This document shows, piece after piece, positions 37,948-63,372 of a DNA stretch of 64,000 nt; position 1 is the first letter of the stretch, and each line of letters starts with the position of its first letter. The notes under the pieces were generated by a model, which ran no database searches, was not told the DNA's origin, and saw only the letters and a list, made by a program, of their open reading frames with translations. The stretch covers positions 22,940,001 through 23,004,000 of the forward strand of contig OX485809.1 in assembly GCA_950295325.1 (NCBI GenBank), in the 5' to 3' direction. This DNA is from Polytrichum commune. Lineage: Eukaryota > Streptophyta > Polytrichopsida > Polytrichales > Polytrichaceae. The translations under genes were made by a program, and so were the position numbers.

Positions 37948-38821
37948 ATGAACACTAGGTCGAGAGTGAGAGCAGATCGAGAAGGTAGAAGGACCATTCA
38001 GAAGCAAAGGCGTATTGAGAGAAGGGAAAGGTTAGAATCAAGAGAGATCCTAGGAACACCATACAACTTGCGGACCACAATGGGTAGAAGAGGGGTTACT
38101 TCTTCTAGGGGGACAGGTAGAGGTTCCCAAGGGGAAAAAACGTTTGATGTTGCAGATGTAGCTCCAGTAGTATTATTTCATGTATCGGAGGAAGACAACG
38201 AAGTTGACAAAGTGGGCAGTGAGGTGATGTTTAACGACAAACAAAATGAAAAGTTTTAATTTGCTTGCAATCATAATGTTTAATTCTAATTGGCAATGAT
38301 ATCGGGTGCTTTATGTTGTGTTTTATGTTTGGTGGGCGATTGTGAATTGAATTTGGTTTGGGTATCTGGAACAGGGAATGACGCAGACACAGGTTCAACC
38401 TGAGGCAACCTCCAGTGCCTCAACATCAGATCATACTGAGGAGCAGGTTTGCAAAGAGTGTTATCAATTGGTGACTTGAGTGGTCTTGGGTTTAGGGTAA
38501 GGGTTCTTCAAATTGATAAAACTTTATAAGGCCAACTTCATAGCTAATGACCACATGACATATACAATGACAGAAGATTGGCGATTTCGAACAAGGCGCT
38601 GATATTGTTGATCTTCGAGAACTAAGCATGGACAATGAAGAACAACAATTCGGGGAAGAGGTAAGTTGTCCAAAACAAAAAACCTTGAATGTTTTTTTGG
38701 AATAGTGCTCGGAGATTACAGATCTATTATTTCAAGAAGTTAGAATCTAGGTCTAGGCCCCGAGATAGACTTTCAAAGGGTCACTGGGCGACACCTATAC
38801 ATGCCGAGGGAGAAATTTCTG
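37948..38821 (+). CDS. 5' exons of a probable element gene (outer ParB-like gene)
   Basis: Four short exons are proposed: 37948-38223 (MNTRSRVRADREGRR...), 38375-38446 (GMTQTQVQPEATSS...), 38574-38660 (KIGDFEQGADIVDLREL...) and 38722-38821 (IYYFKKLESRSRPRDRLSKG...). The first three introns are GT-AG and phase 0. The N-terminus is Arg-rich and the rest acidic, with no catalytic domain. The next plausible exon in the same direction is at 63373, so the arrays and nested elements between would lie in one huge intron. The last donor here is phase 1 whereas the 63373 acceptor is phase 0, so at least one exon is missing or misplaced. The gene is divergent from the MULE-like transposase, with about 630 bases between starts. 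Confidence 0.42.
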
Positions 38822-44416: not shown

Positions 44417-44444
44417 AACACTATATTCGTTAAATTGAGACTTT
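44417..44444 (+). repeat. Left terminal inverted repeat of the 16.2-kb element
   Basis: Twenty-eight bases identical to the reverse complement of 60578-60605. The match ends at 44444, and the next bases (CTCTAG) have no counterpart on the right. Confidence 0.93.
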
Positions 44445-44948
44445 CTCTAGTCTCAAATTAATATATGGATCAAAGAACTTGAAGAGGCCCGAAACTATAT
44501 TGTCAACAATCTCAATTATATTATATGTTCTAATATCTCAAATCTATGATGTGCGGACATAAGCACATATGGTAGAGCACTCGACACCAACTTCATCAAC
44601 AAAAACACATTGGGTAGAGCACTTCAAACAAGTTTCACCCAAAAATATATATAAAATGATTTCTATTATTAGCATGTTCAATAGAATATAGACATTGCAA
44701 CATACAAAGTGCATGTAATAAATGCATGTTTCTTCATTCGAGAATATAGTCCCAAGCATAATAATAAGATGAACTTCAATTGCAGCTTGAAATATAGTAA
44801 ATGGATATTCATCCAACTCCAAACAATATAGTATTCGTAAGTTCTACCCAAACTCTGCCCCAATTTTGAAGAGCACACATATGTGTAATTTATATTGCTA
44901 TAATTACGTATTAAACTATAATCATGCTAACACAATCCTACCAACTTC

Positions 44949-47900
44949 TCATTCAACGTGGGTTGCTTCTTCTGCAATCCGAGCAAGGTTGTCTTTTGCA
45001 AAAGTTATGTACTTTTGAGGGATGGACACTGATCCACTATGGTGTTTCCGTGGTTTCCATGCTATGAATATGGAATCTGTATCTACCCAAGATGGACCGT
45101 GCTCAGAATCCACCTTCCACCGAAAGTTAGGGTTTGTATCCCAGCCTGTATAATGCCGAATCACATCTTCATTCCTTGCTGTCGGTCGATAGTACTCCAC
45201 TTGTATTTGTCGAAAATGAGGGCTGGAAGTTACAAAATTGGGATTGGACAAAGCTCTTGCCACCCACACTGGCTTCGCATATGTCTCGTCTCCAGGACGC
45301 AAAATGAGCATATAACCTTCATGACAATCCACTGCAATGCGGAAAGATGGTGGGGGACGACTACTAGCAGGCCCCACGTAATGGTCGTCCACATCAAACT
45401 CCTCTCGAACCTCTCCATTTCCCAAAAGACTAGGCTCTGAAGCTTGTACATCGACTCGTGTTTGTGGCCAAAATCCATGCCTCAAAGTATGAGGGCTATC
45501 TTGGTGGAGGTCTGCCAAGGCGGCACGAACACGTGTCCAATAATGTATCCAACTCCCATAACGATGCCAACATGATCCGCCAACATCCGCTATTTTCAAA
45601 CTCTCCCAATATTGTATGAAGCCTGATATACCTTTCAAAATATCCTCCAAATTCTTCATGGCTATTGGCTTACAAGGCCTAGGCTCCCCATCCGGTAACA
45701 TGGTCTTTCCATCCGCATCCACGCGCCACACAAGAAGACCCTCCGGCGGGCTCCAGTCTTGTGACGTGCACAACAACTTGTATTGCATGGCCGGGACACC
45801 ATCGTCACGCATATAGAAGCGGAATTGTTGTGCCTTCGTATGCCCGATCAATCGGTGAGCTCCACTTCGAATATAAGGTTCTATAAATGCCTTGAAGTCT
45901 GGCACCTCCTCAATCATATGGGGGATGACGGGAACGTTCTCCAAATCCATGTACGACTTCATCAATAATGGAATTGTAGGGAAATCCTCCTCCCGCAACT
46001 TCATGCTCCACCGCCCAAAAGATGCATCAATATCATCGTGCGTGTGGCCTACCAATAGGAAGGACACAAAAACCTCCTTGAAAATGCCTTTCGCAACCAA
46101 CAACGACCAATATGCAAATACATATCTGCTTTTATTGTCCTTGGCACAATTGTCCAATTGGACACGCAAAGTTGGAGGCAACTTCTTGGCAATCACGGGT
46201 TCATTGGGTGGCTCGGGCAACGAATGCAAGCATACATCTTTTCCATCCAACACCGCTTCATATAAAGGTGTTGAACCCGTGTTCTCAAATAACAATCCTG
46301 AAGAATAGGCTGGTGGTTTCTCTAAATCACGTAAAAGCCTTGCAAATGATCCTATCGTGTGGTTTGAATCCGCTGGATACAAATCAAGAGCATAATGAGC
46401 AAATTTGACATCACCGTGTCCATGTGCAATCATTCCTGCAATGCCAACCCAACGTGATTAGCATCTATGTATGAATAAACCATTATGAAGGAATCCATGT
46501 TCTCCAGTACATCACGGAATAAAATACAACAACATTTAGGGTATGTCATGACATTGTTTCGAAGTTCACCTGTAACCGATACAGGCAACTTGAAAAACCC
46601 ATCCGTGGCCTTGATTCGATTTGCAAAACATGGGGAGGCTGTTTTGGCATGGTCCATTTTGTCATGGATGACCGTAAGAACCTCCAAGGGCCTGGAGATG
46701 GACAAAGCTCTATTTGTGTAGTAATCATTACGGTGTGCCTCTTGCATGTTTACGTGCTTGAAATAGTTCAATTGATGCGCTGCATATGACTCGGTGCCCA
46801 TCGTGTGTGCATCCCGGAGGCGCTTCAACTTCTCGCAATTAGAGCACCTGGCAAATTTGTCCCCTCGTCTTTTTGTAATGTATTCGCTAAAGTTTTGTTT
46901 CTTGATTGCACTCAATTTTGACAATGAAATTGGCTCCAACCCAATCTTCTCGCCAACTGCATTAACGTCCAACAATATGTCTTTCCATTTTGTGCCTGTG
47001 GGAAGAACTTTCTCCACAACCTTTTCACCGGTTGTGAGTGTGCGTGTTTTGTGCGGCATTGCATCGGCAAGAGGGACAATGATGGTTGCTAGAGTGGCCG
47101 TTGCTTGCCTTGTTGCTTCCCTAGGCTTCTTTAAACCCACGTTACCATGGTGACGGGACCGGCGGCCTTCCTTGGCATAAGCAGCTTGTCTATAAAAGTC
47201 CGATTTCGACACACCGTGAATGGTGTACCATGCCTTACAACACACGTCTATGCTTTCAATGGTGATGACCTTGCGACCCGTCCCATTCACATGTATCGCC
47301 CTATGGACATCAAGTTTTCTTGTGGATCTTAGACGGAAATCTCCAAGCCACATTTCTTCGCGGATGACCTTCAATTTATCCCTTGGAAACAATTGGCAAC
47401 AACGATGCACACAACAATCCTTTGTGGCAACTTCTCTAATGGACTCCTCCCCGAGCAACCTTTGACGTTTACAATCAGTTGCAGACGGAGCAGGACGTGC
47501 CAATGTATCGTACTTTCTTTGACCCTTGCGCGGCCGCATGTTTGATTGCACCTCCTTTTCGATTTGCATGTGTCGTTGCTCATGTTCACGCAAGCTAACT
47601 CCATCAATTGTGACATTCCTCAATGGCCACCTGCGGAGGGAGAACCTATGAGTGGGATCCACCTCGGAATGAACGACCGACTCCAATATGACAACCCCAA
47701 CGTCCTCAGTGCCAAGCGGGTTTTCATCAATGCAATCTTGCGGATGGGTGTTACGGCAAATCCCCTCCGCCACAACAACTCCACTATCGTTAAGAAGTAT
47801 CACCTCCAAATTCACCCACGAAGCCCTTGAAAGTCCCGTACATTCAACAATGGGACACTGCGGTACGGAAGACGAAGGTAAATCCAAATGATCTTCATCC

Positions 47901-48013
47901 GCACTGTCAGCCATAGTAGCCTCCCCGACAATGTCTAGGTCATCATCAGATGCAGATGGCCAAGTGGCCATGTCATCAGATGACCAATCCCCTATTTCAC
48001 TAAACCCATCCAT
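44949..48013 (-). CDS. DUF7869-type DDE transposase of the 16.2-kb element
   Basis: Two minus-strand exons, 48013-46570 and 46435-44949, are joined by a GT-AG phase-1 intron (46569-46436). The splice yields ...LPVSVTG|MIAHGHGDVKFAH..., and the product is about 976 residues. The start MDGFSEIGDW was chosen as the first Met after a plausible acceptor. The N-terminal part is acidic. Cys pairs (CCVHRCCQLF, ARCSNCEKLK) suggest zinc binding. The catalytic core shows IHDKMDHAKT (Asp near 451), LRVQLDNCAKDNKSRY (Asp near 576) and VGHTHDDIDASFGRWS (near 612-620), the signature of the DUF7869 transposase-like family. The reading frame is intact, so it may be functional. The palindrome array 48227-49263 lies directly upstream and could be its promoter region or a control site. 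Confidence 0.85.
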
Positions 48014-48226
48014 TCTGCCTACACACATGAACATTGAACATTGTCTTAAAATCACAAAAATTGTAGGTTCAAATCGAAGAACAAAAAAACCATCATATAT
48101 AAACAAAATTGCAAATACTCAGTGCTCATACAAGTTCATATGACTGCTATGCCATTGGGCTTGTAAAGGTTTCGGAAGGCCAGTGGCCACACCGGCACCC
48201 AGATCCCAACCACACTTAGAGGCTGG

Positions 48227-49263
48227 GTTTGGGTCGAGCGACCCAAACCTTTTGGGAGGATGGGTTCAGGCTCAATACAGAGAGCACCCACACTTAGGCG
48301 CTGGATTTGGGTCGAGCGACCCAAACCTTCTGGCAGGATGGGTTTAGGCTCACTACAGACAGCATCCACACTTAGGGGCTGGGTTTGGGTCGAGCGACCC
48401 AAACCTTTTGGCAGAATGGGTTTTGGGTCACGACAGGGAGCACCCACACTTAGAGGGCTGGGTTTGGGTCGAGCGACCCAAACCTTTTTGCAGGATGGGT
48501 TCAGGCTCACAACAGTGAGCACCCACAGTGTAGGGCTAGGTTTGGGTCGATCGACCCAAACCATGAGGCAGGATGGGTTCAGGCTCACAACAATGAGCAC
48601 CCACACTGTAGGGCTGGGTTTGGGTCGATCGACCCAAACCTTGAGGCAGGATGGGTTCAGGCTCACAACAGTGAGCACCCACACTGTAGGGCTGGGTTTG
48701 GGTCGATCGACCCAAACCATGAGGCAGGATGAGTTCAGGCTCACAACAGTGAGCACCCACACTGTAGGGCTGGGTTTGGGTCGATCGACCCAAACCATGA
48801 GGCAGGATGGGTTCAGGCTCACAACAGAGAGCACCCACACTGTAGGGCTGGGTTTGGGTCGATCGACCCAAACCATGAGGCAGGATGGGTTCAGGCTCAC
48901 AACAGAGAGCACCCACACTGTAGGGCTGGGTTTGGGTCGATCGACCCAAACCATGAGGCAGGATGGGTTCAGGCTCACAACAGAGAGCACCCACACTGTA
49001 AGGCTGGGTTTGGGTCGACCGACCCAAACCATGAGGCAGGATGGGTTCAGGCTCACAACAGTGAGCACCCACACTGTAGGGCTGGGTTTGGGTCGATCGA
49101 CCCAAACCATGAGGCAGGATGGGTTCAGGCTCACAACAGTGAGCACCTACACTGTAGGGCTGGGTTTGGGTCGATCGACCCAAACCTTGAGGCAGGATGG
49201 GTTCTGGCTCAATACAGAGAGCACCCACACTGTAAGGCTGGGTTTGGGTCGACCGACCCAAAC
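48227..49263. repeat. Tandem array of 14 palindromes (GTTTGGGTCG arms), unit about 78 bp
   Basis: Fourteen consecutive units each contain arm GTTTGGGTCG, two bases, then CGACCCAAAC (one left arm begins ATTTGGG). The rest of the unit reads GGATGGGTTCAGGCTCACAA and AGCACCCACACTGTAGGGCT. The central two bases are AG in the first four copies, AT in eight and AC in two, while the arms hardly vary. Because most units are a multiple of three and lack stops, long open frames appear on both strands; these are not genes. The array is immediately 5' of the transposase start. Confidence 0.95.
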
Positions 49264-49887
49264 AATTCCGCAAAATCCGCCTATTTATTCGGGTGATGCT
49301 CTATTAATCTATTTATAACCTATTTGGGACAACTGAACTCATAGATGCTTGTTGTAATTAGCTGCTCATGAATGGAAGCGTATACAAACCGTGTATTACA
49401 GCTCCAACTTAGAGAGCTTGCAGCAATCTCAGGATTGGGACATGAAAGAAAGAACCAGCATTTGGGGGGGTTGGGCTCTTTATACTACCCGCCTCCGCTT
49501 TGGGCATCCTCTTTGGATGCCTTTCCCACCTGGTCTCCTTTGGATGTTAATTCAAACCTTCTGACTCAATTTCCCGCTTCTTGTCAATAATAGAGAATGT
49601 ATATTTAGCTTGGCTCTTCGTTGCCCCAACCACCAAATGAATAATTCAACATATATTTAAAGTTGTTACCACCCTAACTTGGTCAACACTATTCTTCAAC
49701 TCTTTCATAATTAGTTTTATACATGAATACACCACCACCTTCCCTATTGCCATCTCCTTTCTCCTTTTATCATTGTTGTATATTTTTCTCACATCCTTAC
49801 TAATACTAAATCCCTATATGTAACTTCCATATATCACCATAGTGGATATTTAGTGTTTGAGTTTACATTTAATGTTACTTACTCTCA

Positions 49888-50023
49888 TAGGGTTAGTAAT
49901 GGGAAGTGTATGCGTTCGTTTTAAGTGTATCAAACACTAACTATCATATAACTAAAAAGGATATAAAGGTTTTGATACACTACATATGAACGCATACACT
50001 AAATACCAATAACCCTATGACAA
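49888..50023. repeat. Imperfect foldback repeat, about 136 bp (MITE-like)
   Basis: The left arm CATAGGGTTAGTAATGGGAA...GTGTATGCGTTC pairs with the right arm GAACGCATACACTAAATACC...AACCCTATG over about 46 bases with several mismatches. It is probably a small non-autonomous transposon inserted within the larger one. The target duplication could not be defined. Confidence 0.5.
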
Positions 50024-50831
50024 TATGTAAGATTATATCTATTAAGGGGTTTTACTCTACTTGTAGTCAAACATTATGGTATATTTCAAACAATATATTG
50101 ACAAAAGATGTGCATGTATTATAAAACTTCATATACTAAAAGTCACTAAATATAATAGTTAATGCTATTATTTAGACTCTCACATGAGGACTTATATTTT
50201 GAAAACAAATAATTAATGCCATGACAAACTTGAATAATTTGGCCAACTTTCAATTTCTGCTAATTAAAAGAACATATGTTGTGTTGTAATGTGTGCACCC
50301 AATATTGCTTCATCCTCAAGACTCCAAGTGTGACAATAACCTAGTACCTATGTGGAAGTCATTAATGGAACCCTAAACCACAAATGACATTTGGCACGTT
50401 CAATCTTCCAAGGATGTTTGAACCTATCGTGAAGTCCCTTGAACTCTACCAATGTGTGTGAGCAAAACATGCAAAGTTCAAAAGGTATGTCCTCATATCA
50501 TTCACAACATGAAATCTACTTTAAATTAATATATAATATTTCACTATTCCAAATAACATGTTAACATGAACCACATCCTATCCATTATAATCTAGTTCTT
50601 ATGCTTTTCTTACCAGGTGACAAGGTTATAGGTTAATATTGTATCACCTACTTGTGAGCACAATATCGTTTATTTCCTTTAGTGCGTTCATTCGTGAAAA
50701 ACCACACATCCATCTTTCACGTTTGTGAATTAGGATGTTGTGATGACAATATACATTTGTATTGGAAACTACAAGCACCAAGGCCCATGTCATTTGACCT
50801 ATGTGCCATCCAGTTATGGTTTGTGTTGTTT

Positions 50832-50868
50832 AAGGTTTAGGGTTTAGGGTTTAGGGTTTAGGGTTCAG
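50832..50868 (+). repeat. Interstitial TTTAGGG telomere-type repeat
   Basis: About four consecutive TTTAGGG units plus variant edges (TTTAAGG, TTCAGG) occur. This is the Arabidopsis-type plant telomere unit, which also appears as telo-box motifs in promoters of growth genes. Here it lies inside a transposon. Confidence 0.75.
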
Positions 50869-51399
50869 GCATCATCAAACATCAAACTGAATGTTTAAAT
50901 GACTTCATATGATATGTGAACTCCATGGGGTTGCAGTAGATACATTTGTAATCATTTGTTTCTCCCATGTACTTCAAATGTGAACTTCTAAGTACATATA
51001 TTAATGTTCACTCTAATGCTACTTGTTAGGGTATCCATTATAGACTAGAGCATTGTCCTCTACCAACAACCATCATATAAATTACAATACATAATCCTAA
51101 ACTGTTAACCATGTGAATGGTTACCATATTTATATTATTGCACCGTGTAATTGCCTTTGTGGATTGCAATATAATTATGACTTACTCCTCTTAGACTTTG
51201 TAACACTCTCATATGATTCCATAAATTACATTATTCATACACCAAAACGATAATGGCTACATTCAACGATGTTATCAATTCCAACGGGTGATCATTCAAT
51301 TGAACACCATTAAAATATGAGTTGGTGATGGTGTTAATTTTGTGGAATACCTTAGTCCACGTAGGTTTTTGACTGGTATTGAATTGCCGCTAATGAATA

Positions 51400-52247
51400 G
51401 CGGGTTAGAAGGCCGGGGCCGGGCGGCCAAGAGAGGCGCCGGCCCTCCTATGTCCCGCACCTAGGGGCAAGGACAACCAGGAAGGCAATCTCCCTAGGGT
51501 GGCAGGTGTCAACACCACAAGCCTCGCGGGCAACCACCTAAACCAAGGAGGTGTCGACACCTGGCAAGGTGTTGGCCCGCGAGGCTTCTGAGCCGTTGAT
51601 GGGCCCGGCGCAATCTAATGGCCCGGATTCGAGGGTTTAGGGTGACCCCTTCCGCTCTCTCCTTCTCTCCCCTCCTCTTTTTTCTTTCTCTCTTTTTCTT
51701 CCTCTCTTCCTCCGCGCCAAGCGCCGCTCTTGGAAACGCCGCCGCCGCTTTCCATAGCGCCGCGCCAAGCGCTTCCTCTCGCACCTTTTGCTTTTGTCTT
51801 GGTCGCGCCGCTTCCCTTCATTCTTCTTTCTCCTTCATTCCTCTCCTCCTCTCTGATGCTTCTCCTCCTCTTCTCTCATTCTATTCCTCGTGTTATTGTC
51901 TTCCTCTTCTTATTCTCTCTTCTTGGTCCAGAGTGTTAGCTTTGAGTGAGTTCGGAGCGGTTTATTGTGTTGAACTCCTTACTTGTTTTGTAAAATTCAT
52001 GCATGGAGTGATTTTAGGTTGAGTAGAAGTGAGCACGGTCGAGTGTGATAGAAATGTAGAGGTCTTTCAAATTAGGCCTGAGTTTGCAAGAATCAGGGGG
52101 TTTGTGAGAAAGTTTTAGGGTGCTTGAGAGATTCATTGTGTTTCTGAGATCTTTGTGAGAGTTGTTCTTTAGTGCCACAACAGAGTTTCTGAGTCTGGTT
52201 GTAAGAAGCAGATTGTGAGAGCAGCTTTCAAGAGTTTGAAAGACAAG
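51400..52247 (+). promoter_or_regulatory. GC-rich promoter region and 5' UTR exon of the large element gene
   Basis: GC content jumps at about 51400. A CT-rich leader (about 51650-51720) and a non-coding stretch follow, ending in a strong donor (GACAAG then GTAAGC at 52248). The next acceptor, TTGCAG, ends at 53175 directly before the ATG. I infer transcription from this region with a 0.9-kb intron in the 5' UTR (52248-53175) that holds a palindrome cluster. The Pro/Ser/Phe-rich open frame at 51618-52022 is a composition artefact of the CT-rich leader. Confidence 0.45.
51519..51587. promoter_or_regulatory. Inverted repeat in the element promoter region
   Basis: AAGCCTCGCGGGC at 51519-51531 is the exact reverse complement of 51575-51587. 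Between and beside them lie GGTGTCAACACC and GGTGTCGACACC, which are themselves palindromic. The cluster sits just upstream of the CT-rich leader, so an operator-like role is possible but unproven. Confidence 0.45.
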
Positions 52248-52440
52248 GTAAGCAATTTGCATCAGTGCACACAATTTGCATCATTCCCTTTAGGTTCCTG
52301 TTACATATACAATGCATAAGCATTGTATATGTTGCCCAAGCATTAAACATGCATCTGGAAACACAGTAGTTTGGGGAGACGACCCAAACTCATATTAAAA
52401 TATAATAAATATTTGAATTGCAGCCTAAAATGAACTAAAT

Positions 52441-53148
52441 GTTTGGGTCGTTCGACCCAAACATTGCAGCCTCTTGTTTGGGTCGAGCGACCCAAACATT
52501 GGAGCCTCATTATGTTTGGGTCGCTCGACCCAAACATTACAGGGAGAAGAACTAAACCACATTGTAAAATATAAAAGAACTTCAAAAATTAAGTAAATGT
52601 TTGGGTCGTTCGACCCAAACATTGCAGACTGAAATGACTGGGTTGAGGTACCTAAATTTGCAGCCTAACATGTTTGGGTCGCTCGACCCAAACATTACAG
52701 GGAGAAGAACTAAACCACATTGTAAAATATAAAAGAACTTTGAAAATTAAGTGAATGTTTGGGTCGTTCGACCCAAACATTGCAGTCTGAAATGAATGGG
52801 TTGAGCTACCTAAATTTGCAGCCTAACATATTTGGGTCGCTCGACCCAAACATTACAGGGAGAAGAACTAAACCACATTGTAAAATATAAAAGAACTTCC
52901 AAAATTAAGTAATTGTTTGGGTCGTTCGACCCAAACATTGCAGTCTGAAATGAATGTGTTAAGATACCTAAATTTGCAGCCTCATCATGTTTGGGTCGCT
53001 CGACCCAAACATTACAGGGTGACCACCTAAACCACACTTTAAAATCTAAAAGATCTTTTAAAACGACTTTGAAAATTAAGTAAATGTTTGGGTCAATCCT
53101 CCAAATGTTAAATGCACATTGCAATACTTTGGGTCGATCGACCGAAAC
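52441..53148. repeat. Palindrome cluster in the 5' UTR intron of the large gene
   Basis: Nine intact or near-intact copies of the GTTTGGGTCG-arm palindrome occur from 52441 to 53010. A degenerate copy follows near 53084 and one with a single arm change at 53127-53148. Central bases run TT, AG, CT, TT, CT, TT, CT, TT, CT; the alternation shows tandem duplication of a unit of about 157 bases carrying one TT and one CT copy. A half-degenerate copy also lies near 52371. Surrounding sequence differs from the 78-bp array at 48.2 kb; only the palindrome is shared. Confidence 0.93.
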
Positions 53149-53175
53149 TCACAGTTTCGATTTCTTGGATTGCAG

Positions 53176-56100
53176 ATGGCCCCTAAAAAGAGACCAGGTG
53201 AAAGGTGGTTCATGCTCGCGCCAGACCACCTTTGGCAGGAGTATGAAACTCCACAGGACGATTCTTACGTCCCAAAAGATGGCGTCGTTTTGGCATGGTC
53301 CGTTCAGGTGGTGAAGGCATCCATGTTCAAGCTGCTATTCGTGGTGAAGGTGGGGACCCACGAGCAGCACACCTGGGCAACGCTGACGGGATGGGAGGTT
53401 GCGTCCGTCCAGTCTCTCGGGGACTACGTAGACGTGATACTGGAGAACTCCGCCGTGCAGAACGTCCACATGTTCATGCACCAGTTCTCCGAGCCCTTCG
53501 ACCCCCTGTACGCCAAGGAGACTTGCGTCGACCCTGAAACCATAAAACCAGAGGCCATATTCATAGATGGTAGTGTAACGAACACGAAGGTTGCGAGCAG
53601 GTTCACGAAGTTAAAACAGGCTATCACGGTTCTCAACAAGGCGCTGCAAAGCAAACCCAAGACGCAGCAGCCTGTGAGGCGGAAGGCAACGACGGAAGAA
53701 GGCGCAGGGTCCTCAAGACCACAAACTGTGAGGAAACCGCGGGCGGTCCCTGCAGACTCGAGACGGACGAGCACTACAACAACGCCGGCTGACAGCGAGA
53801 CGCCAACGCCATCAGGAAGCCGTCAGACGACCCCTTCCAAGAGGGGAAGAGAGTCATCGGGGATGACTGACGAGCCTGTTTCCCCGGAGCTCCGGATGCT
53901 GAAGCCTGGCCAAGAGGTGGATGCAGGCGAAATACAAAAAATAAACAACAACTTCGAGACAAAATGCCTGCACTGCTTCTTCATGGGCAGGGACTTCAAA
54001 TTCGAGGTCAACATTGCGCAGTGCCACCTTGCACCACCAGAGAAGTGCGTCCGAGCCAAGGAGGACGCCTACGTCGACTGGATGGTCGCTCAAATCTTGG
54101 GCGGGCAGTTCAAGGACGACAGGCAGACAATTGTTGTCATGCCACAAGGGCTGAAAAGAATGCCGACGCCTGAGATGTGGCCGGCAATCTCTAAAGGAGA
54201 CTTCTGGCTGATTGACGGGCAGCACAGTGTGGAGGCCTCGAAAAAAATCCAGCTGATGACCGAGTGGGACGACCCGAACAACCAGAAGGAGAAGCTAAAA
54301 GTTTGGAAGGCTTTGGTGGTTTGGTCGGACAACGAGACGGTCCTCAGCGACATCTCCAGGTTCTTCAACATGGGGAACAAAAAGAGGGCCTATCAGGCAT
54401 CGTGGATCAGAAACATCATGGCCTCGAGGGAGGTGTGGGAGTTTTATGGAAGGCCTCCCAAGGAAAGGGAGAATGCTAAAGACAAGAACCCCAAATGGGA
54501 GGTGAGTATGTTTGGGTCGATCGACCCAAACTCCTACATTGTTTTGTTGTCATCGCCAGGTTGATAGTTTGGGTCGGTCGACCCAAACTCTGAAATTATT
54601 TTGATATTGTCCCCAGGTTCATAGTTTGGGTCGGTCGACCCAAACTCTGAAATTGTTAAGATGTTTTCGCCAGGTTCATAGTTTGGGTCGTTCGACCCAA
54701 ACTGCTGTTGCATTTGTTTTTCCATTATGTGTTGTCTAACATGTGCTAATGTCTTCCTGTGCAGGACTTCAAATATCAAATGATCAATAAATTCTCCTCG
54801 ATCGACAATGCTAGCCACAAGCAGAAAAAGTATAACGAGCTGAGAGGAGAAATCTATTTGATCACAGCGTCCGATTCCGTATGGGCAAGATGGAAGAGTG
54901 TTTTTGAAAAACACGAGACGGGGGACCTCATGGACCCCGACACCGGCATGCGGTTCAACCAGACTACGCGCTTCAAGCAAATGAAGCCTCTGGTGAGGGA
55001 GTTCTTCAGAGCGCTTCAAGGTCTCTCCGAGACAGAGATGGGAAAAGCGGCGTCCCACATCCTACACGTGGAGACGACGGCGAAGAGATGCTGGGTCCAC
55101 CCTAAGATCGTCTTCACCAAACCCAAGATCTTCGTCCCTTCATGCTACACAATGAAGGAATGGACGGAGAACAGGAAGAAGAAGACGACCATCGTCCAGG
55201 AGCTGCACAAGCTTGTGCCAGAGAAGAAGCTCATCGTGGACGGAGAGGTCGACGAGGCGCACTGGAGGGCCTTCAAAGCCGAATATAAGTTTACCAGTGC
55301 GTCCATGGCGGCACTCATGAGGGAGGCGGGAGACGACTTCCTCAGATCCAAGCTCGTGAAGGGGGGGAGGAACCGGGCGCTTCCCGAACACTCAGTGCGG
55401 GCCTTCTCCAACTTCATAAAGGAGAAGAAGATCGTCAGTTTCGAAGGCGATGCGCAATTCAACATGGTCACTGTCGAACCTCTCAGGATCCAGGGTTGGC
55501 CGGGTTCTGAGTCAAGGAAGGCGATCAGGACTAGAGCCGGGGACCGCTTCCCCTTCGGAATGATAGACTTCAGGAACATCCCTGGAGCCTCATTCGAGGG
55601 GACTATGAGCACCCCTTTTTACGATCCTTTCTTGTCGAAGTTCGTGGACTACGCCAGCCCCAAATTCAGGGAGGTCGACGTCTGGCTCTGGATTGTCGAG
55701 GACAGAAGGGCAGAGCAGGTTTACGAGATCGTGCGCAAATTGCAGCCGGAGTATGCCGTCTCGAAATCTCACTACGTTGCTGCACCGGCGGAGGGGGCGT
55801 ACAGCACGCTGAAAGACAAGAAGACGAAGATCGTCAACGTGCTGTGTTTGTACTTCGTGTACAAAGCTGAGCTGCTTAAGGTGCCAAACCATCCCATAGC
55901 CAGGATGGAAAAGCTCTTCCAAGTCCAAGAAGGGTTGGGTACCAGCAGGAGCTTATATGACGAGGCGAAGTACGCCAACTACCCCGCGGATGAGCTGCGC
56001 ATGGAGTTCTACCTGCGGATGATGAGGACCCTCACGAAGAGAGGGGACTGCATCTTCAACGTTTTCGGGGGGTCCAAACCGATTTTTGCAGCCATGGTAA

Positions 56101-59100
56101 GCAGAAAACCCAGAAGTCCCTATACGTTCGGTTTGGGTCGAACGACCCAAACTAGGGGCATGCACAGTTTGGGTCGCTCGACCCAAACTAGGGCCATGCA
56201 TAGTTTGGGTCGAGCGACCCAAACTAACTATTCTTATTTTGTTTGGAAGTCATTTTCCATTATATGTTCATTTGGTGTTACTAATAGTATTGATTTTGAT
56301 TGTGCAGATGTCTGGGTTGAACATCTACTCCTATGTAGAGGATGCCGATGTTCAATTCTACAGGACCCAAAAGGCGCTGGCCAAGAGAATGGACATCCTC
56401 GACTGGATACCCGGATCCTACGTCGAAGAGATCGTCGAGGGGGGCGAGAATCCTTTGGATATTGCGAGGCGAATCAACCCGGGTGAATTCGCCATGCGGG
56501 CCCCCGTTCAATTGCCAGAGCCGCTCATCGGGTTGCATCCGGGCAATCCGTCTATGGGAGCAGGTGGCAGGGTTGGGGAGGAGGGGGAGGAAGACGAGGA
56601 GGAGGCGGAGGAGGAAGCAGAGAAAGTGGAGGGGGAGGTGGAGGAAGGGGCAACAGGATTCACTCAAGAATCCGAGGCCCCTCAGCGGAAGAAGGCCATG
56701 CGGCCTGCCACGCCGCAGAGCAGGCTGGTGCCCGCGTTGACGGTGGACGACGCCAAGGATATGTACTCGAGGGACGCGACGGCCACCTTCAGGGAGCGTA
56801 GAAGGATGAAGGGGAAGAAGCTGTACGGGGACTATGCGGTGGAGGAGACGATCGCAATAAGCTCCGAGGACGAGGACGACATGGAACTCGCCAAGAAGCT
56901 GAGGTCTGATCCTGCCTCCCCCAGAGCGTTCGCCGGGAATGTGAGGGTGAAACCGGAGGTCCTCACCGTGGAGGAGGCGAACGCAAAAATGCTCCGAGAC
57001 GAGGAGCAGCGTGTGCGACTGCAGAGGGCTGCCGCCGAGGAACCCTCTGTCCGCAACGAAGTCGCGGAGTTGAGGGCTCTCCTGTTGGAGCAGGAGCGGC
57101 AAAGGGCGATGTCCCAAACTCCGTCCCAAGCGGACCTCATCACGCAAGTGATCCAGGGCATGCTGGCGCAGGGATTGGTGATGGCTCCCCCGAGTTCATT
57201 CCCTCACTTGCCCGCAGGCTTCCCTCCACAGGATATCCGCCCGCGGCCGGCGTTGGAGCATTCCTTCAGCTTCGCGGATTTGCTGCAGCCGCACGCCCGT
57301 CCTTACGCGCCTGTGCAGCAGGTGGATGATCCAAACCTTTGGCGCGTCCCCGGAGCGTCCAGCTCGTTGGCACCCCCCCCCCGCTCCGGCCTCCCATCCT
57401 CTTGCCCCCACACCACCAGCGGGACGACCCCCACATGTTTGGGTCGTCCGACCCAAACAGTGCCGACGTTGCAGCGTCGCAGAGCGACCCTCGCCAAGCA
57501 GCAGGGTTTGGGTCGGCCGACCCAAACCCCGTCCCCCATCAGACCCCGGTCGACGAGCCTATGCTAGATGTTGAAGGCCCGCAAGGGCCTGGTGATACCT
57601 CTACTCCTAACCCAGTCGATGAACCAATGCATGATGCGCATGCGGAGGTTGGGTTGGGACAAAGGCCTGACAGTCAGCCTTTGCAGGAGCAGGTTGCGGC
57701 TGACGGCGTCGTCGGAGGCGGCGGTGACAGAGGTGGGGCAGCGCACGCGATGCCGGCATCAACGTCGTCAAGGCACGACCAAGGCGAGGTAATGCACTGA
57801 CCCCACTCAGTTTGGGTCGGCCGACCCAAACTTCCTGGGTCTTTGACTTCTTGCCTTGGTCGTGTCCCCTAGCTAGGACGAACTTAGGCCCCCCCCCCGG
57901 CACTCGCGCCCTTCGTCACCCCCAGCGACCATTCGTTCGTCCACCTACCCCCGGCTTTGCAACGAAGTCTTCATCACGGCGGCCCGTCTCTTCAATTTTT
58001 TCTAGATGTAGAAGTAGGCTAGTTTGAACGCATCGTTCAACGCGGCTCCCCCAATCAAGATGTACATAGAGCATTGTATATAATATAATCACCATTTTTG
58101 ACTCCTATATACTTGTATATTGTGTTTGAATGTATTTTGTATGCTCTTGTATCCCTTGTATCCCTTGTTGCACCCCCTCCAAAATGAATCAAATGCTTTT
58201 GTGTTTGCACCGAGAACGCTCGTTTCCTTAATGCTTCGTTTGGACATAGCATGACATAAGTCGCCCCCGTTTTCTCTCGCTCGTATCCGCAGGGCTCGGA
58301 GCATAGCGTAGCGGCTCCCCGACGCTCTTCTCCAAGGAGCGCAGAGGGCAGCACGGCGGCCCCCCCGGTTTTACCCGCCCCGCCCCCGCTGCCGAAGAAA
58401 CGATTCCTGGTGTTAGACCTGAACGGTGTCCTCGTGCAGTGCGTTCATTGCCCTAGGGCCCCCACAGTGCCCTTTTGCAAGCCCGAGGACGCTAATTACG
58501 ACGGGCCGCCCACGTTCATAAAGAGCAAACTAGTTCACCTCCGCCCGTGGCTTCGGACCTTCCTCCAGATCGCCCAACAACGATGGTGGGTGGTCGTGTG
58601 GAGCTCCATGAAGGCCGAGAACACCAATGCAGTCGTGGAGTTCATCTTCAAGGGCATCGAGCCCCCCTGCATGGTCCTAGCACAGGAAGCCTGTAGAATA
58701 TTGTACACACCGGACGGCAAAGTCGTCAAAAAACCAAACAACCCCGCTTCCCCCCAATACCTCAAGGTCTTGAAGCCCATTTTTTGGGACCAGCGACCGT
58801 CCTTGATAGGCGTCCCCTACGACGTCCGCCCCACCCGCGAGAACACGCTCATGGTGGACGACAGCGCCGCAAAGAACATGTTGAACCCGACGGCCAACTT
58901 CATAGTGTGCCCTACGTGGACGGTCGAGAAGGTCCGGGACCGATTTTTGTTAGACCTTAGTAAATACCTCCAGGCGCTCTGGGGAAGCGGACTTCCCGTA
59001 AACAATTTTGTTAGGAATAATCCCATAGGCGAGAGATACTTGGATCCACGAGACCATTTGTACAGAGAGTTGTTATCTCACGCGAAATTTAACAAGCTCA

Positions 59101-59105
59101 TTTGA
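53176..59105 (+). CDS. Large element protein: ParB-like, methyltransferase-like and FCP1-like phosphatase domains
   Basis: Exons 53176-54501, 54765-56096, 56308-57788 and 58293-59105 have GT-AG phase-0 introns and give about 1650 residues. Exon 1 starts MAPKKRPGERW and holds a basic Ser/Thr-rich linker and FWLIDGQHSVEASKK near residues 344-358, resembling the DGxHR/ParB nuclease fold. Exon 2 ends GDCIFNVFGGSKPIFAAM (869-886), which with MSGLNIYSYVEDAD of exon 3 matches motif I of N4/N6-type DNA methyltransferases (D.F.GSG..AA). At the expected DPPY position I see only IDFRNIPG (about 709), so catalysis is doubtful. Exon 3 has an acidic tract and a Glu-rich helix. Exon 4 carries VLDLNGVLVQ, VVVWSSMKAEN and TLMVDDSAAKNM, the plant FCP1-like HAD pattern (second Asp replaced by Asn). 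Exon 3 changes frame at a run of ten C (57373-57382), so one base is missing or assembly is wrong. Confidence 0.7.
54510..54702. repeat. Four palindromes in intron 1
   Basis: Four perfect GTTTGGGTCG-arm palindromes, spaced about 57 bases apart, have centres AT, GT, GT and TT. They fill most of the intron 54502-54764; the first begins eight bases inside the donor. Confidence 0.95.
56131..56224. repeat. Three palindromes in intron 2
   Basis: Three perfect copies with centres AA, CT and AG are separated by short spacers containing CTAGGGCATGCA-like sequence. They lie in the intron 56097-56307, which splits the methyltransferase-like motif region. Confidence 0.95.
57437..57527. repeat. Two palindromes inside coding exon 3
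   Basis: Perfect copies at 57437-57458 (centre TC) and 57506-57527 (centre GC) fall within the Pro-rich end of exon 3, just after the poly-C frameshift. In the frame that leads to exon 4 they encode MFGSSDPNS and FGSADPNP. They are the only copies found in coding sequence. Confidence 0.9.
57810..57831. repeat. One palindrome in intron 3
   Basis: A single perfect copy with centre GC lies 21 bases into the intron 57789-58292. The rest of this intron has no further copies. Confidence 0.92.
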
Positions 59106-59248
59106 GACAGTACGTGTGTTTGTATGTGTGTGTGTGTATATGCGCCTACCCATTTTGTGTAATTTACGCTTCATATGTATCTTGATTTTCACGCGCTCTA
59201 TCTCCCCCCTTTTCCTTGGGTTTTGTTTTGTTCCAATTTTGGCTCCAG

Positions 59249-60056
59249 CGTTTGGAGCCCTCGATTGACGTCGTCAGCGAGTCAGACTTGGGGAGCTTCT
59301 TCTACGAGACCGTTTACGACGCCGCGTCAACCATCGACTACTCCAAGGAGCCTCTTGACGCCGGCGTCGTCGATAGCCCCCCACCCAAGCAAATCTTCCG
59401 GCGATCTGCGTCCCCGTCACCGCTCAAAGGCATAAATCGCAAATGCGTCCGGACATCCCCCTCTCGGCCCGGCGGCAGTAGTACACCTCAACGGCGGCTG
59501 CGGATGGACGCTCGGCCTACGAAGAGTGGAACCCTTCCTATTCCTTTGCGGGATGCCTTGCCCCTCCTCGCCAACTCCGACGGGAACGCCCCCGGTGACA
59601 AGGTGAACCCCCCCCCCCCCCAAAAAAACATGGTTATCCGCGCATTACAATCATTTTGCACTTAAAAAATGAATGTGTGACACGTTTGGGTCTTCCTCCC
59701 TAAACTAACACATGTGTTCGTGCGTTGACGCGTTGCAGGTTGCTCCCACCCGTAAACCTATGCGGTCTAGTGCGTCCATCGAGTTGGAGCGTTTCTACTC
59801 CATGACCAGAAATGCAAGACAGTCCACTTCATCGTATTCGAATTCTTCGTCGTATAATTCGGGCGGCCGACGGAATACAAAATGTGTTATTGATGGCGTT
59901 CACCCCAAGAATGGCTATAGTCGCGGGGCGGAGATTTTCAGGAATGTTGAAGCAATGCGAGCAAAAGAAGCTGCAGCAAAAGAAAAAGAGGCAAAAGAAA
60001 AAAAAGCAAAAGAAAATGAAGCAAAAGAAAAAGAGGTAGTATCCGAGGCTAGATAG
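59249..60056 (+). CDS. Two further exons, basic Ser/Pro-rich protein with Lys-Glu coiled coil
   Basis: Exons 59249-59602 (RLEPSIDVVSESDLGSFFYE...) and 59739-60056 (VAPTRKPMRSS...) join across a GT-AG phase-0 intron and end at the TAG at 60054-60056. The last 40 residues are repeats of Lys, Glu and Ala (AKEKEAKEKK), predicting a charged helix. No ATG or promoter is evident at the start, and the first exon has an acceptor-like GGCTCCAG. It may therefore be the 3' end of the preceding large gene, detached by the TGA at 59103-59105, or a separate gene. The donor after that stop (GTACGT at 59110) is out of phase. Confidence 0.45.
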
Positions 60057-60218
60057 GCCATAGTAGGCGTAGGGTTTTGGGCCATAGGCAAGAACATTTT
60101 GGGTCGCACTATCCAATGCATGTGTGGTGTTAGCATGATATGCATTTTACATGCCACACTTTGTATGTTTTTTTTTTGCAATAATACAAGTTAGACATGA
60201 TTTCCCCTTCCATATGGT

Positions 60219-60455
60219 CTAAGGTTTGGATTGCCCTACCTAAACCATCACAAATATGAGTTTGGAATATTTTGTATGCAATATTATATTGGTTAACATA
60301 TTAACCCTTCAATAAGATCTATGGTTTGGATTGCCCTACCTAAACCATATTCATACAAGCTCTAATATTTTGTGTGCAATAATATGAATGTTTTAAGGTT
60401 TCCCCTTAAATGTGGTCTAAGATTTGGATTGCCCACCCTAAACCATCACAAATAT
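60219..60455. repeat. Three degenerate palindromes in the right subterminal region
   Basis: Three tandem units of about 100 bases each contain GTTTGGATTG, CC, CTACCTAAAC or a close variant (ATTTGGATTG, CC, CACCCTAAAC). Length (22) and position of the 2-base centre match the intact family, with four arm substitutions, three of them transitions. They appear to be decayed copies. Similar degenerate forms occur near 59684 and 60096. Confidence 0.7.
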
Positions 60456-60577
60456 GAGTTATTTATGGGGTTCTTGGTCTAAACACCTGCTTCAAAGTGT
60501 TCGCATCTTACAACTTTCTCCAATATGTGTTCCATTTATCCTTGTTCTTATTTATGTGAATGTCTCAAAATGCCCAA

Positions 60578-60605
60578 AAAGTCTCAATTTAACGAATATA
60601 GTGTT
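60578..60605 (-). repeat. Right terminal inverted repeat of the 16.2-kb element
   Basis: Twenty-eight bases, the exact reverse complement of 44417-44444. The target duplication AAGT follows at 60606-60609. Confidence 0.93.
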
Positions 60606-60746
60606 AAGTGTAAGTGTAGGTAGTTATGATTTTGAATTTGAGAGTTGATTTCTGGTTGTCTCGGTCCCGAGACTGAATTTTACCCTATCAAACCATACTA
60701 TCTCAGTCTGAAATAAGAGTTATATTGTAATCTTATATATGTGTAA
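60606..60746. repeat. Outer palindrome array resumes right of the insertion
   Basis: The sequence from AAGTGTAAGTGTAGG onward, including a TGTCTCGG-TC-CCGAGACT copy at about 60657, is nearly identical to the unit at 44260-44410. This shows directly that the 16.2-kb element split one tandem array. Confidence 0.9.
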
Positions 60747-63168
60747 GACTCAAATCATAATCAGTCAAATATCAACTCCTAACCCCCAAACCAGATTCCC
60801 TCAACCCACAGTCAAGCTCAAATTCATATCAACACTTTGAAGCCTCGGCTCTAAGTTCAGATTTCAAGTGCTCACTTTATATATGTCTACGTGGCCTCAT
60901 TTCAGGTCAGAATCTAACAATATGAAGCCTCGGCTCTTAATTCATATTTGAAGTGCTCACTTTATATATGTCTACGTGGCCTCATTTCAGGTTAGAATCT
61001 AACAATATGAAGCCTCGGCTCTAAATTCATATTTCAAGTGCTCACTTTATATATGTCTACATGGCCTCATTTCAGGTTAGAATCTAACAATATGAAGCCT
61101 CGACTCTAAATTCATATTTCGGGTGCTCACTTTATGTTATTTTAGCTGGCCTCATTTCAGGTTAGAATCTAACTCTTTGAAAGTGGCTTTCGGTTTAGAT
61201 TTCAAGTTCTCACATTATGTGGCTGTCCAATATATGGGTTTCGGGACCGAATCCTTCATTTTCAGGTCAAGAGGGTCACACCCTGAAGCCTCGGCTTCAA
61301 GGTTCAAATTAAAGGTGCTCACTTTATATATATCTAGTTGACCTCATTTCAGGTTAGAATCTAAGTCTTTGAAAGTGGCCTATAGGCTTAGATATCAGGT
61401 TCTCACTTTATGTGGGTGTCCAATATATGGGTTTCGGGACTGAAACCTTCCTTTTGAGGTCTAGAGGGTCACACCTTGAAGCCTCGGCTTCAAGGTTCAA
61501 ATTACAGGTGCTTACTTTATATATATCTAGTTGGCCTCATTTCAGGTTATAATCTAAAGCTTTGAAGCCGAGGCTCTAGGTTCAGATTTCAAGTGCTCTC
61601 ACTTTATGTTGTCCTAGTTGGCCTCATTTCAGGTTAGAATATAACACTTTGAAGCCTCGGCTCTACTTTGAGATTTCAGGTTCTCGCTTTATACATGTAT
61701 AGTTGGCCTCAGTTCAGGTTAGAATCTAACAATTAGAGGCCTCGGCTCTAGGTTCAGATTTAAGGTGCTCACTTTACGTTGTTTTAGTTGGCCTTATTTC
61801 AGGTTAGAATCTAGAATTTGAAGGTTGGCTATAGGCTAAGATTTCAAGTTCTCACTCTATGTTGTTTTAGTTGGCCTCATTTCAGGTTAGAATCTAAGTC
61901 TTTGAAAGTGGCCTATAGGCCTAGATATGAGGTTCTCACATTATGTGGCTGTCCAATATATGGGTTTCGGGACCGAAACCTTCATTTTGAGGTCAAGAGG
62001 GTCACATTTTGAAGCCTCGGCTTCAAGCTTCAAATTACAGAAGCTCACTTTATATATATGTAGTTAGCCTCATTTCAGGTTATAATCTACCAATTGGAAG
62101 CCTCAGCTCTAAGCTCATATATCGGGTGCTCACTTTATATAAGTCTAGTTGGCCACATTTCAGGTCAGAATCAACCAATTTGAAGCCTCGGCTCTAGGTT
62201 CAGATTTCAAGTGCTCATTTTATATATGTCTAGTTGGCCACATTTCAGGTGAGAATCAAACAATTAGAGGCCTCGGCTCTAGGTTCAGATTTAATGTGCT
62301 CACTTTATATAAGTCTAGTTGGCCACATCTCAGGTCAGAATCAACCAATTTGAAGCCTCGGCTCTAGGTTCAGATTTCAAGTGCTCATTTTATATATGTC
62401 TAGTTGGCCACATTTCAGGTTAGAATCTAACAATTAGAGGCCTCGGCTCTAGGTTCAGATTAAAGGTGCTCACTTTATGTTGATTTAGTTGGCCTCATTT
62501 CAGGTTAGAATCTAAGTCTTTGAAAGTGGCCTATAGGCTTAGATACGAGGTTCTCACATTATGTGGCTGTCCAATATATGGGTTTTGGGACCGAAACCTT
62601 CATTTTGAGGTCAAGAGGGTCACATTTTGAAGCCTCGGCTTCAAGCTTCAAATTACAGGAGCTCACTTTATATATATGTAGTTGGCCTCATTTCAGGTTA
62701 TAATCTAACAATTTGAAGCCTCGGTTCTATGTTGAGGTTTCGGGTGCTCACTTTATATAAATCTAGTTGGCCTCATTTCAGGTTAGAATCTAACACTTTG
62801 AAGCCTCGGCTTCAAGGTTCAAATTACAGGTGCTCGCTTTATATATCTAGTTTGCCTCATTTCTGGTTATAATCTAACAATTTGAAGCCTCTGCTCTAAG
62901 TTCATATATCGGGTGCTCACTTTATATAAGTCTAGTCGGCATCATTTCAGGTTAGAATCAAACATTTTGAAGTCTCGGTTCTAGGTTGAGCAAATACTCA
63001 AATTTTCTAACTCTACTGGTCACACCATTGGATTGACAAGATTGAAATGCATAAATTTAAAGGAAGAGCAGTACCTTGAGCATGAATGTTTTCAAGTCGT
63101 TGTAGGAAGGGGTGAATTCATCCGTGTCACCGCCAAGAACGTCGTCCAATGAGGAGTTGAGAATGAGC
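60747..63168. mobile_element. 2.4-kb insertion carrying a third tandem array, TAA target duplication
   Basis: The outer array reads ...ATATATGTGTAA before and TAATCTGATCTAAG after, so 60747-63168 is an insert flanked by TAA (60744-60746 and 63169-63171). A 3-bp TAA/TTA duplication suits PIF/Harbinger-type elements, but the ends (GACTCAAATC and its counterpart GCTCATTCTC) are only weakly inverted. Most of the insert is about 25 units of roughly 84 bases, with GAAGCCTCGGCT, CAGATTTCAAGTGCTCACTT and GGCCTCATTTCAGGTTAGAA blocks. Two palindrome types occur: CCTTGAAGCC-TC-GGCTTCAAGG (61474-61495, 10+2+10) and GGTTTCGG-GA-CCGAAACC (61963-61980). The open frames here are repeat artefacts. Confidence 0.6.
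63075..63167 (-). pseudogene. Exon fragment at the right end of the 2.4-kb insertion
   Basis: The minus strand reads LILNSSLDDVLGGDTDEFTP, then SYNDLKTFMLK, and ends at a good donor (CTCAAG then GTACTG). It is coding-like, stops at the insertion boundary and has no partner exon inside the insert. It is probably a remnant of the element's own gene after internal replacement by repeats, or a captured host exon. I do not recognise the family. Confidence 0.35.
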
Positions 63169-63171
63169 TAA

Positions 63172-63372
63172 TCTGATCTAAGTGTAAGTGTAGGTATTTA
63201 TGATTTTGAATTTGAGAGTTGATTTCTGGTTGTCTCGGTCCGGAATGGTAGCCTTTCCAGCTCTAATTCCCCAGTCTGATATAAGAGTTATATTGTAGTC
63301 TGAGATATGTGTAATCTAATATATTTTATTTTCATGCTCTCTCCTAGATTAACTAGTGCATATATTTTGCAG
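63172..63372. repeat. Last unit of the outer array
   Basis: The GTAAGTGTAGG...GAGAGTTGATTTCTGGTTG unit continues here, with a damaged palindrome (TGTCTCGGTCCGGAATGG at about 63232). It then runs into a TTTTGCAG acceptor at 63372. Confidence 0.75.

Follow-up and report, generated by a model that had tools for sequence, protein, structure and literature searches.

A 22-bp palindrome of large DNA transposons in the moss Polytrichum commune is a probable family-specific recognition site of an element-encoded protein

The subject of this work is a 22-bp palindrome which recurs inside a DNA transposon, here called element A, of the moss Polytrichum commune. The element was found in a stretch of 64,000 nucleotides (assembly GCA_950295325.1, contig OX485809.1, positions 22,940,001 to 23,004,000 of the forward strand), referred to below as the window, whose numbering is used throughout. 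The palindrome, GTTTGGGTCG-NN-CGACCCAAAC, consists of two 10-bp arms and a 2-bp centre (a 10+2+10 build). As judged from sequence comparisons, it is probably the site by which a two-fold symmetric DNA-binding protein, encoded in the transposon and most likely by the gene designated below as gene 2, recognises its own family. The arguments are as follows. The arms are strongly conserved, and so is the distance of 2 bp between them; those copies that can be assigned lie in these elements, beside and inside genes; and gene 2 differs between related families more than the transposase does, the half-site changing in step with gene 2.

Copies and genomic distribution of the palindrome

An earlier note on this DNA, made from the letters alone, had reported about thirty copies of the palindrome. 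In the window we found 34 when up to three mismatches were allowed, with 31 exact, while 100 dinucleotide shuffles yielded none. The copies fall in six groups (of 14, 10, 4, 3, 2 and 1), all inside the 16,191-bp element A. In the whole genome (407.8 Mb, 64 contigs) the exact palindrome occurs 9,231 times and its reversed control not once; at up to three mismatches the respective counts are 13,847 and 5. The arms, described in the note as invariant, are indeed exact in 31 of the 34 copies here, but only in about two thirds of the genome-wide total (9,231 of 13,847). When the arm pair was counted with spacers from 0 to 6 bp, as the note had proposed, 9,235 occurrences were obtained, four of them with a spacer other than 2 bp, so that other spacers are nowhere near as frequent as the 2-bp one. 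The placement of exact copies was judged from the first 100 places listed, two of which (C1:475338-475391) were left out; those in loci with retrieved sequence lie in copies of element A or of its subfamily B, or, by resemblance to the element M described below, in the second element type.

Many copies lie in arrays with periods of 78, 64, 57, 36 and 32 bp. Tandem duplication thus explains many of the copies in the window, those of the 78-bp array at 48227-49263, but does not account for the single palindrome sites, and the statement of the earlier note that simple tandem duplication is insufficient is supported. In another array, with a 64-bp period (L012:3594-4970), the palindrome is CCCTGTGCGTTAACGCACAGGG and its left arm is changed in approximately half of the units. 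At site 56167, the window element has CT as its centre and the C1 copy of element A has AG, the reverse complement, as if the site had been flipped.

An RNA hairpin was set aside as an explanation, the arms being fixed in sequence within a family; besides, a loop of 2 nt is too short for such a hairpin. Matches listed in a literature text search with the arm sequence were unrelated, judging by titles and the beginnings of abstracts, and no such palindromes were reported among the matches listed for VANC, for ParB- or methyltransferase-containing transposons and for palindromic moss transposons.

Organisation of element A

Element A occupies positions 44416-60606, its ends being sharp by comparison with the C1 and C6 copies. 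Its features are given below. B1 and B2 are copies of subfamily B, which match the window element at 75-86% and carry palindromes at the same places; Y is a sister family; TIR stands for terminal inverted repeat and ORF for open reading frame.

44416-44444, strand +: left TIR, 29 bp, 100% complementary to 60578-60606; same junction in the C1 and C6 copies
44949-48106, strand -: gene 1, putative transposase (ORFs 44949-46433 and 46430-48106); DUF7869 (Pfam PF25273, E 8e-41) in the first ORF
48227-49263, no strand: array of 14 palindromes upstream of gene 1, 78-bp period; diversity 0.007 in the arms, 0.308 in the centre, 0.201 in the flanks
52441-53148, no strand: 10 palindromes upstream of gene 2, nine at 52441-53010 and a two-mismatch copy at 53127
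53176-54501, strand +: gene 2 exon 1 (ORF; splice junctions read from the sequence), with a DGQH...A stretch
54510-54702, no strand: 4 palindromes in gene 2 intron 1, 57-bp period
54765-56096, strand +: gene 2 exon 2, 36% identity to the family Y exon, E 3e-84
56131-56224, no strand: 3 palindromes in gene 2 intron 2, 36-bp period
56308-57800, strand +: gene 2 exon 3, in two frames in the window copy, a single open frame in B1 and B2
57437-57458, strand +: palindrome within exon 3, encoding FGSxDPN in B1 and B2
57506-57527, strand +: second palindrome within exon 3, arms 19/20 in B1 and 20/20 in B2
57810-57831, no strand: single palindrome in the interval between genes 2 and 3
58410-59105, strand +: gene 3, NIF/FCP1-like phosphatase, Pfam PF03031, E 2.7e-13
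60578-60606, strand -: right TIR, 29 bp, pairing with the left TIR; 2-bp duplication AG/AG

The TIR begins with TAACAC, and a 2-bp target duplication, AG, is present on both sides of the element in the window and in the C1 copy; the flanks of the C6 copy disagree (CT and GT). The first 100 TIR places in the list include 15 pairs of adjacent, facing repeats separated by 15-45 kb; a 2-bp duplication matched in 15 of 15 and a 3-bp one in 0 of 15. Because of this TIR-flanked setting, gene 1 is taken to be the likely transposase gene; its second ORF had no Pfam match, and no mention of DUF7869 was found in the literature searched. The outer parts of the element are free of palindromes, the nearest lying 3.8 kb from the left end and 2.7 kb from the right. 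The divergent site at 53127 is present in B1 and B2 as well, with 19/20 arm positions. Gene 3 follows gene 2 in element A, B1, B2 and the families Y and X, and a transcriptional role would be in keeping with a carboxy-terminal-domain phosphatase. Among 89 scored copies of gene 2 exon 1 (of 1,112 candidates genome-wide), 32 are 99-100% identical, 28 of these having no stop, and the element A family has therefore moved recently. Gene 1 of the C1 copy (L001) contains 1.5 kb of inserted DNA, bordered by a 5-bp repeat, at window position 46189, and a short telomere-like GTTTAGG run is found within element A at 50828-50869.

Constraint on the arms and on the centre

The comparison of the window element with its subfamily copies was made for the sites with gap-free arm alignment (10 of 11 for B2, 9 of 11 for B1), gaps in the flanks being counted as differences. 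In B2, 198 of 200 arm positions, 313 of 596 positions of the 30-bp flanks and 9 of 20 centre positions are identical to those of the window; the respective figures for B1 are 176/180, 273/536 and 9/18, though some of the compared intron pairs may not be strict orthologues, the units being tandem. Thus the arms, far from diverging at the rate of the flanks, are much more conserved, in agreement with the purifying constraint that the earlier note had proposed. The exon 3 sites, both of which are in frame in B1 and B2 and read FGSxDPN, are of the same kind: at 57437 the arms are identical at 20/20 positions in B1 and B2 and the flanks at 31/60 and 32/60. Apart from one arm base in B1, the arms in exon 3 coincide with those of the window even at third codon positions, while roughly one flanking position in two differs. 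Within nine arrays, arm diversity is 0.000-0.070 versus 0.168-0.525 in the flanks; in eight of them the flanks are 6 to 29 times as variable as the arms, and in the ninth (intron 1, four copies) the arms do not vary at all.

The centre had been called hypervariable, and all nine of the dinucleotides named are present; it is not free, however. Pyrimidine-purine centres make up 38 of the 9,231 exact copies, all of them CA/TG, with no TA and no CG, whereas purine-pyrimidine centres account for 5,475 and those of the other kind for the remaining 3,718. In 125 distinct contexts (at up to two mismatches), pyrimidine-purine steps number 0 at the centre versus 25-61 at ten flanking dinucleotides. This avoidance could be partly mutational, since transitions alone cannot make pyrimidine-purine steps from the other classes. 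Several centres nevertheless differ by transversions between the window and B1 or B2, and the avoidance is therefore read as a probable constraint on the dyad. In the sister families described below, the centres are AA/TT or AT in family X and CG or CA/TG, all pyrimidine-purine, in family Y (both among the matches listed); the latter may represent CG with ordinary decay. Taken together, fixed arms, fixed spacing and a centre which avoids flexible steps without its individual bases being read fit a two-fold symmetric protein, and a dimer contacting both arms, which the note had also considered, is the best reading of the fixed dyad and of the arm constraint.

Sister families and co-divergence with gene 2

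A profile search with DUF7869 (150 scored of 1,491 candidates) revealed several further families. Family Y has the gene order of element A and its own palindrome, TTTACGGACG-NN-CGTCCGTAAA (1,147 exact copies genome-wide), with copies upstream of gene 1, others alongside gene 2 and others again within or adjoining the introns of the latter. In family X, the palindrome CCCACGGGTG-NN-CACCCGTGGG (644 exact copies) is found at places similar to those in element A. For two more families, Z1 and Z2, an own 10+2+10 palindrome was predicted before their sequences were retrieved, and a recurrent one was present in both: GGGTGAGGCA-NN-TGCCTCACCC, between genes 1 and 2, in Z1 and TTTACGAACG-NN-CGTTCGTAAA in Z2. 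The half-sites of Z2 and Y are one base apart, the change being present in both arms, and one family Y site adjoining gene 2 is of the Z2 type. The identities between families are as follows:

Y and Z2: transposase segment 93%, gene-2 segment 52%, half-site 9/10
A and Y: transposase segment 75%, gene-2 segment 41%, half-site 6/10
A and Z2: transposase segment 73%, gene-2 segment 42%, half-site 5/10
Y and X: transposase segment 50%, gene-2 segment 22%, half-site 5/10
A and X: transposase segment 47%, gene-2 segment 18%, half-site 3/10
Z2 and X: transposase segment 44%, gene-2 segment 21%, half-site 4/10

Between A and B, where gene 2 is 89% identical, the half-site is unchanged. These results go beyond the earlier note, as they place the palindrome in one 16.2-kb transposon family, provide sister families with other 10+2+10 palindromes and reveal the divergence of the half-site along with gene 2.

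The palindromes were also sought without any given motif, by a scan of 15 element loci and a 33-kb control, in which a palindrome with arms of 10 bp counted as recurrent if it occurred three times or more (one mismatch allowed, spacers 0-6). Recurrent palindromes were present in 12 of the 15 loci, always with an even dyad; families with odd spacers numbered 0, as did families in the control, and two mononucleotide shuffles per sequence (spacers 0-3) gave no recurrent palindromes. Nine main half-sites were recovered: GTTTGGGTCG, TTTACGGACG, TTTACGAACG, CCCACGGGTG, GGGTGAGGCA, CCCTGTGCGT, AGTGTCTCGG, GGCATCTCGG and GAATTGTGCA. The loci Y and N contain one further three-copy palindrome family each.

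The second element type

Element A is inserted in another element, N, within a 149-bp repeat unit. This host element has a palindrome of its own:

39002-44333, no strand: host element N palindrome GTGTCTCGG-NN-CCGAGACAC, 18 copies; a 19th copy lies at 60656-60675

At up to three mismatches these 19 copies compare with 0 expected in the window, and 997 exact copies exist genome-wide. N, like other elements of its type, has a transposase-like gene, with a putative SWIM finger as in the transposases of Mutator-like elements (MULE; E 0.0013 in N, just under the curated cut-off); the MULE catalytic domain was not matched in the transposase-like pieces of the second type that were scanned. Gene 2 of N appears to start near 63307 and is 40% identical, over the aligned segment, to that of M, another element of this type. 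M and related elements have a divergent gene 2, the last piece of which, in M, resembles phage DNA methyltransferases (PHROG 3008, E 5e-5) and had no Pfam match. In host element N there are also 85-bp repeats with a recurrent near-palindrome, CCCTGAAGCC-TC, in three copies (60831-62987), and a strong GC skew of +0.34 to +0.49 over 5 kb (38001-43000), a region which includes 37-bp repeats.

M carries the palindrome CCCTGTGCGT-TA-ACGCACAGGG; that of element A is present in M as well, arranged in 32-bp arrays. Of nine M relatives (gene 2 identity 55-85%), eight have the CCCTGTGCGT palindrome at up to four mismatches, the one at L026 being without it, and none has the element A palindrome (about 4 kb upstream being covered for seven). 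According to the listed coordinates, the latter palindrome does lie upstream of the C1 gene-2 copies of 93% and 87% identity, and a copy beside L010 (81%) carries it too, so its presence is not strictly ordered by identity. We read this pattern as the probable acquisition of the element A palindrome by a sublineage of the second type, which is best read as profiting from the protein of element A.

The gene 2 protein and the evidence against its proposed role

In gene 2 of A, B2, Y, Z2, X, Z1, M and G3-G7 a stretch of the form (D/N/E)G(Q/N/D)H...A can be recognized by eye. It looks like that of ParB-type proteins; searches of Pfam, NCBIfam and the PDB lent no support to a ParB N-terminal domain in gene 2.

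Several observations weigh against the assignment of the palindromes to the gene 2 protein. Pfam and PHROGs searches with the gene 2 exons of element A gave nothing significant and recognized no DNA-binding domain, and Pfam and NCBIfam searches with gene 2 pieces of its relatives gave nothing significant either. A PDB profile search returned weak, unrelated names (the best being Cas1, E 0.008), and structure models of exons 1 and 2 had pLDDT values of 34 and 35 and were not used. B1 has DGQY in place of DGQH. Alignments by hhalign of gene 2 of element A with that of the second type were collinear and not significant (probability at most 5.4%; E 0.007 when A, B, Y, Z2 and X were aligned together with it). 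As to the co-divergence, the prediction for Z2 is the weaker of the two, this family being closely related to Y; the half-site identity of A and X (3/10) is about that expected by chance (2.5/10); gene 1 co-varies with the half-site as well, more slowly; and the comparison does not amount to a statistical test, as it was made on six pairs from four families of common ancestry and covers 140-195 transposase residues. Finally, three of the 15 loci scanned (G6, G3 and L021) are without a recurrent palindrome by the scan criterion, and the G7 palindrome family consists of three copies.

Alternative explanations

The palindromes might be bound by the gene 1 transposase as internal transposition sites, in the manner of TNPA on the subterminal repeats of CACTA elements. 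The array with the most palindromes is the one immediately upstream of gene 1, and gene 1, too, differs between families with different half-sites. However, the sites are not terminal, being at least 3.8 kb from the left end and at least 2.7 kb from the right one; the same palindrome is carried by the second type, in whose transposase-like pieces scanned Pfam found no DUF7869; and the half-sites of Y and Z2 differ at 93% transposase identity (140 residues compared). We consider this explanation unlikely. A host DNA-binding factor, either an activator or a silencer, would agree with the occurrence of one palindrome in two element types, but each of the nine main half-sites (one of them on three copies) is confined to one family, except that of element A, and in the DUF7869 elements the half-sites drift with an element gene. 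Moreover, a site for a silencer would be expected to be lost, yet the arms are kept at 198/200. On balance, recognition by a host factor seems quite improbable. We give slightly less credence still to the possibility that gene 2 encodes a DNA methyltransferase-like enzyme which modifies the palindrome. A symmetric modification would go well with palindromic sites, and the C-terminal piece of gene 2 in the second type does match PHROG 3008, but Pfam does not confirm this match; the usual catalytic motif DPPY is not seen, its presumed place reading QFPDG or DLPEG; gene 2 of element A has no methyltransferase match; and 22 bp is long for the site of a methylase.

Two further explanations were considered. 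The earlier note had allowed for a recombinase-type site, and a 2-bp centre between inverted arms does resemble the site of a serine recombinase; a tiny mobile palindrome inserted many times would be a variant of this idea. The data speak against both, since no recombinase domain was detected by Pfam in the element A ORFs scanned (gene 2 being without a domain assignment), the sites occupy homologous positions in diverged subfamilies, and odd spacers never recur; we find either of them very improbable. As for a passive origin of the palindromes, by tandem amplification and gene conversion with no selection involved, many copies do stand in the 78-, 64-, 57-, 36- and 32-bp arrays, but the single sites in the exon and 3' of gene 2 keep their arms while their flanks diverge, and the low variation of the arms within the nine arrays is against it as well. 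This explanation can hardly be upheld.

Proposed mechanism and comparison with known systems

Gene-adjacent sites and the drift of the half-site with gene 2 make a protein encoded by the element and controlling its own family the most economical explanation. The gene 2 protein would bind the palindrome as a dimer, one subunit per arm, and in this case the dyad would have to avoid being a flexible step. The binding would keep the promoters of the element active, and its effect would be specific to the element itself, counteracting host silencing, activating transcription or both, in the way of the VANC proteins of Arabidopsis, which bind their motif and remove DNA methylation.

According to PMC5735166, VANDAL elements have tandem short motifs in noncoding regions, which differ between related families, and the VANC6 motif occurs in the unrelated element AT9TSD1. 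The likeness of our elements to VANDAL21 and VANDAL6 with their VANC proteins (PMC5735166, PMC10398659) comprises the motif arrays in upstream regions and introns, the difference in motif between related families, an accessory protein diverging faster than the transposase (here in six pairs of four related families) and a motif common to an unrelated element (the last according to PMC5735166). Here, however, the site is a strict 22-bp palindrome, while the motifs have nine bases for VANC21 and eight for VANC6; two sites also lie in an exon; no match to DUF1985, the domain of VANC accessory proteins, was obtained in Pfam scans of gene-2 exons and pieces; and the transposase candidate is a DUF7869 protein associated with 2-bp target duplications and not that of a VANDAL. 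The resemblance to VANC is thus one of layout and of evolution, and not one of protein domain.

Short sites in many copies inside a large DNA transposon are also typical of CACTA (En/Spm) elements, whose subterminal repeats are bound by TNPA, but the element A sites are internal and not subterminal. Likewise, TIRs of the CACTA superfamily start with CACTA and its target duplication is 3 bp, in contrast to TAACAC... and 2 bp in element A. The bacterial ParB-parS system, whose loading sites are palindromic, bears some likeness, and the gene 2 stretch looks by eye like that of ParB-type proteins; our elements differ in the longer site, in the eukaryotic transposon setting and in a domain assignment without database support.

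In a wider and more tentative interpretation, which we regard as possible and somewhat less probable than its converse, two unrelated classes of large DNA transposons would each have built private 22-bp addresses. Such an address would drift symmetrically with a fast-evolving, ParB-like new self-recognition protein, perhaps capable of loading at the palindrome and spreading from it and arisen independently of VANC. The address of the first class would then have been adopted by a sublineage of the second for activation in trans.

How transposons can escape silencing selectively, with the rest of the genome staying locked, is known in detail mainly from the Arabidopsis VANC system. Should gene 2 bind the palindromes, the moss elements would represent a second, independent solution to this task. 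Its code would be very clean, with nine main half-sites in the loci covered, all of the same length and spacing and most of them beside a candidate protein gene. In that case protein-DNA co-evolution, the capture of a motif by an unrelated element and the origin of orthogonal DNA-binding specificities would become directly testable in these transposon families.

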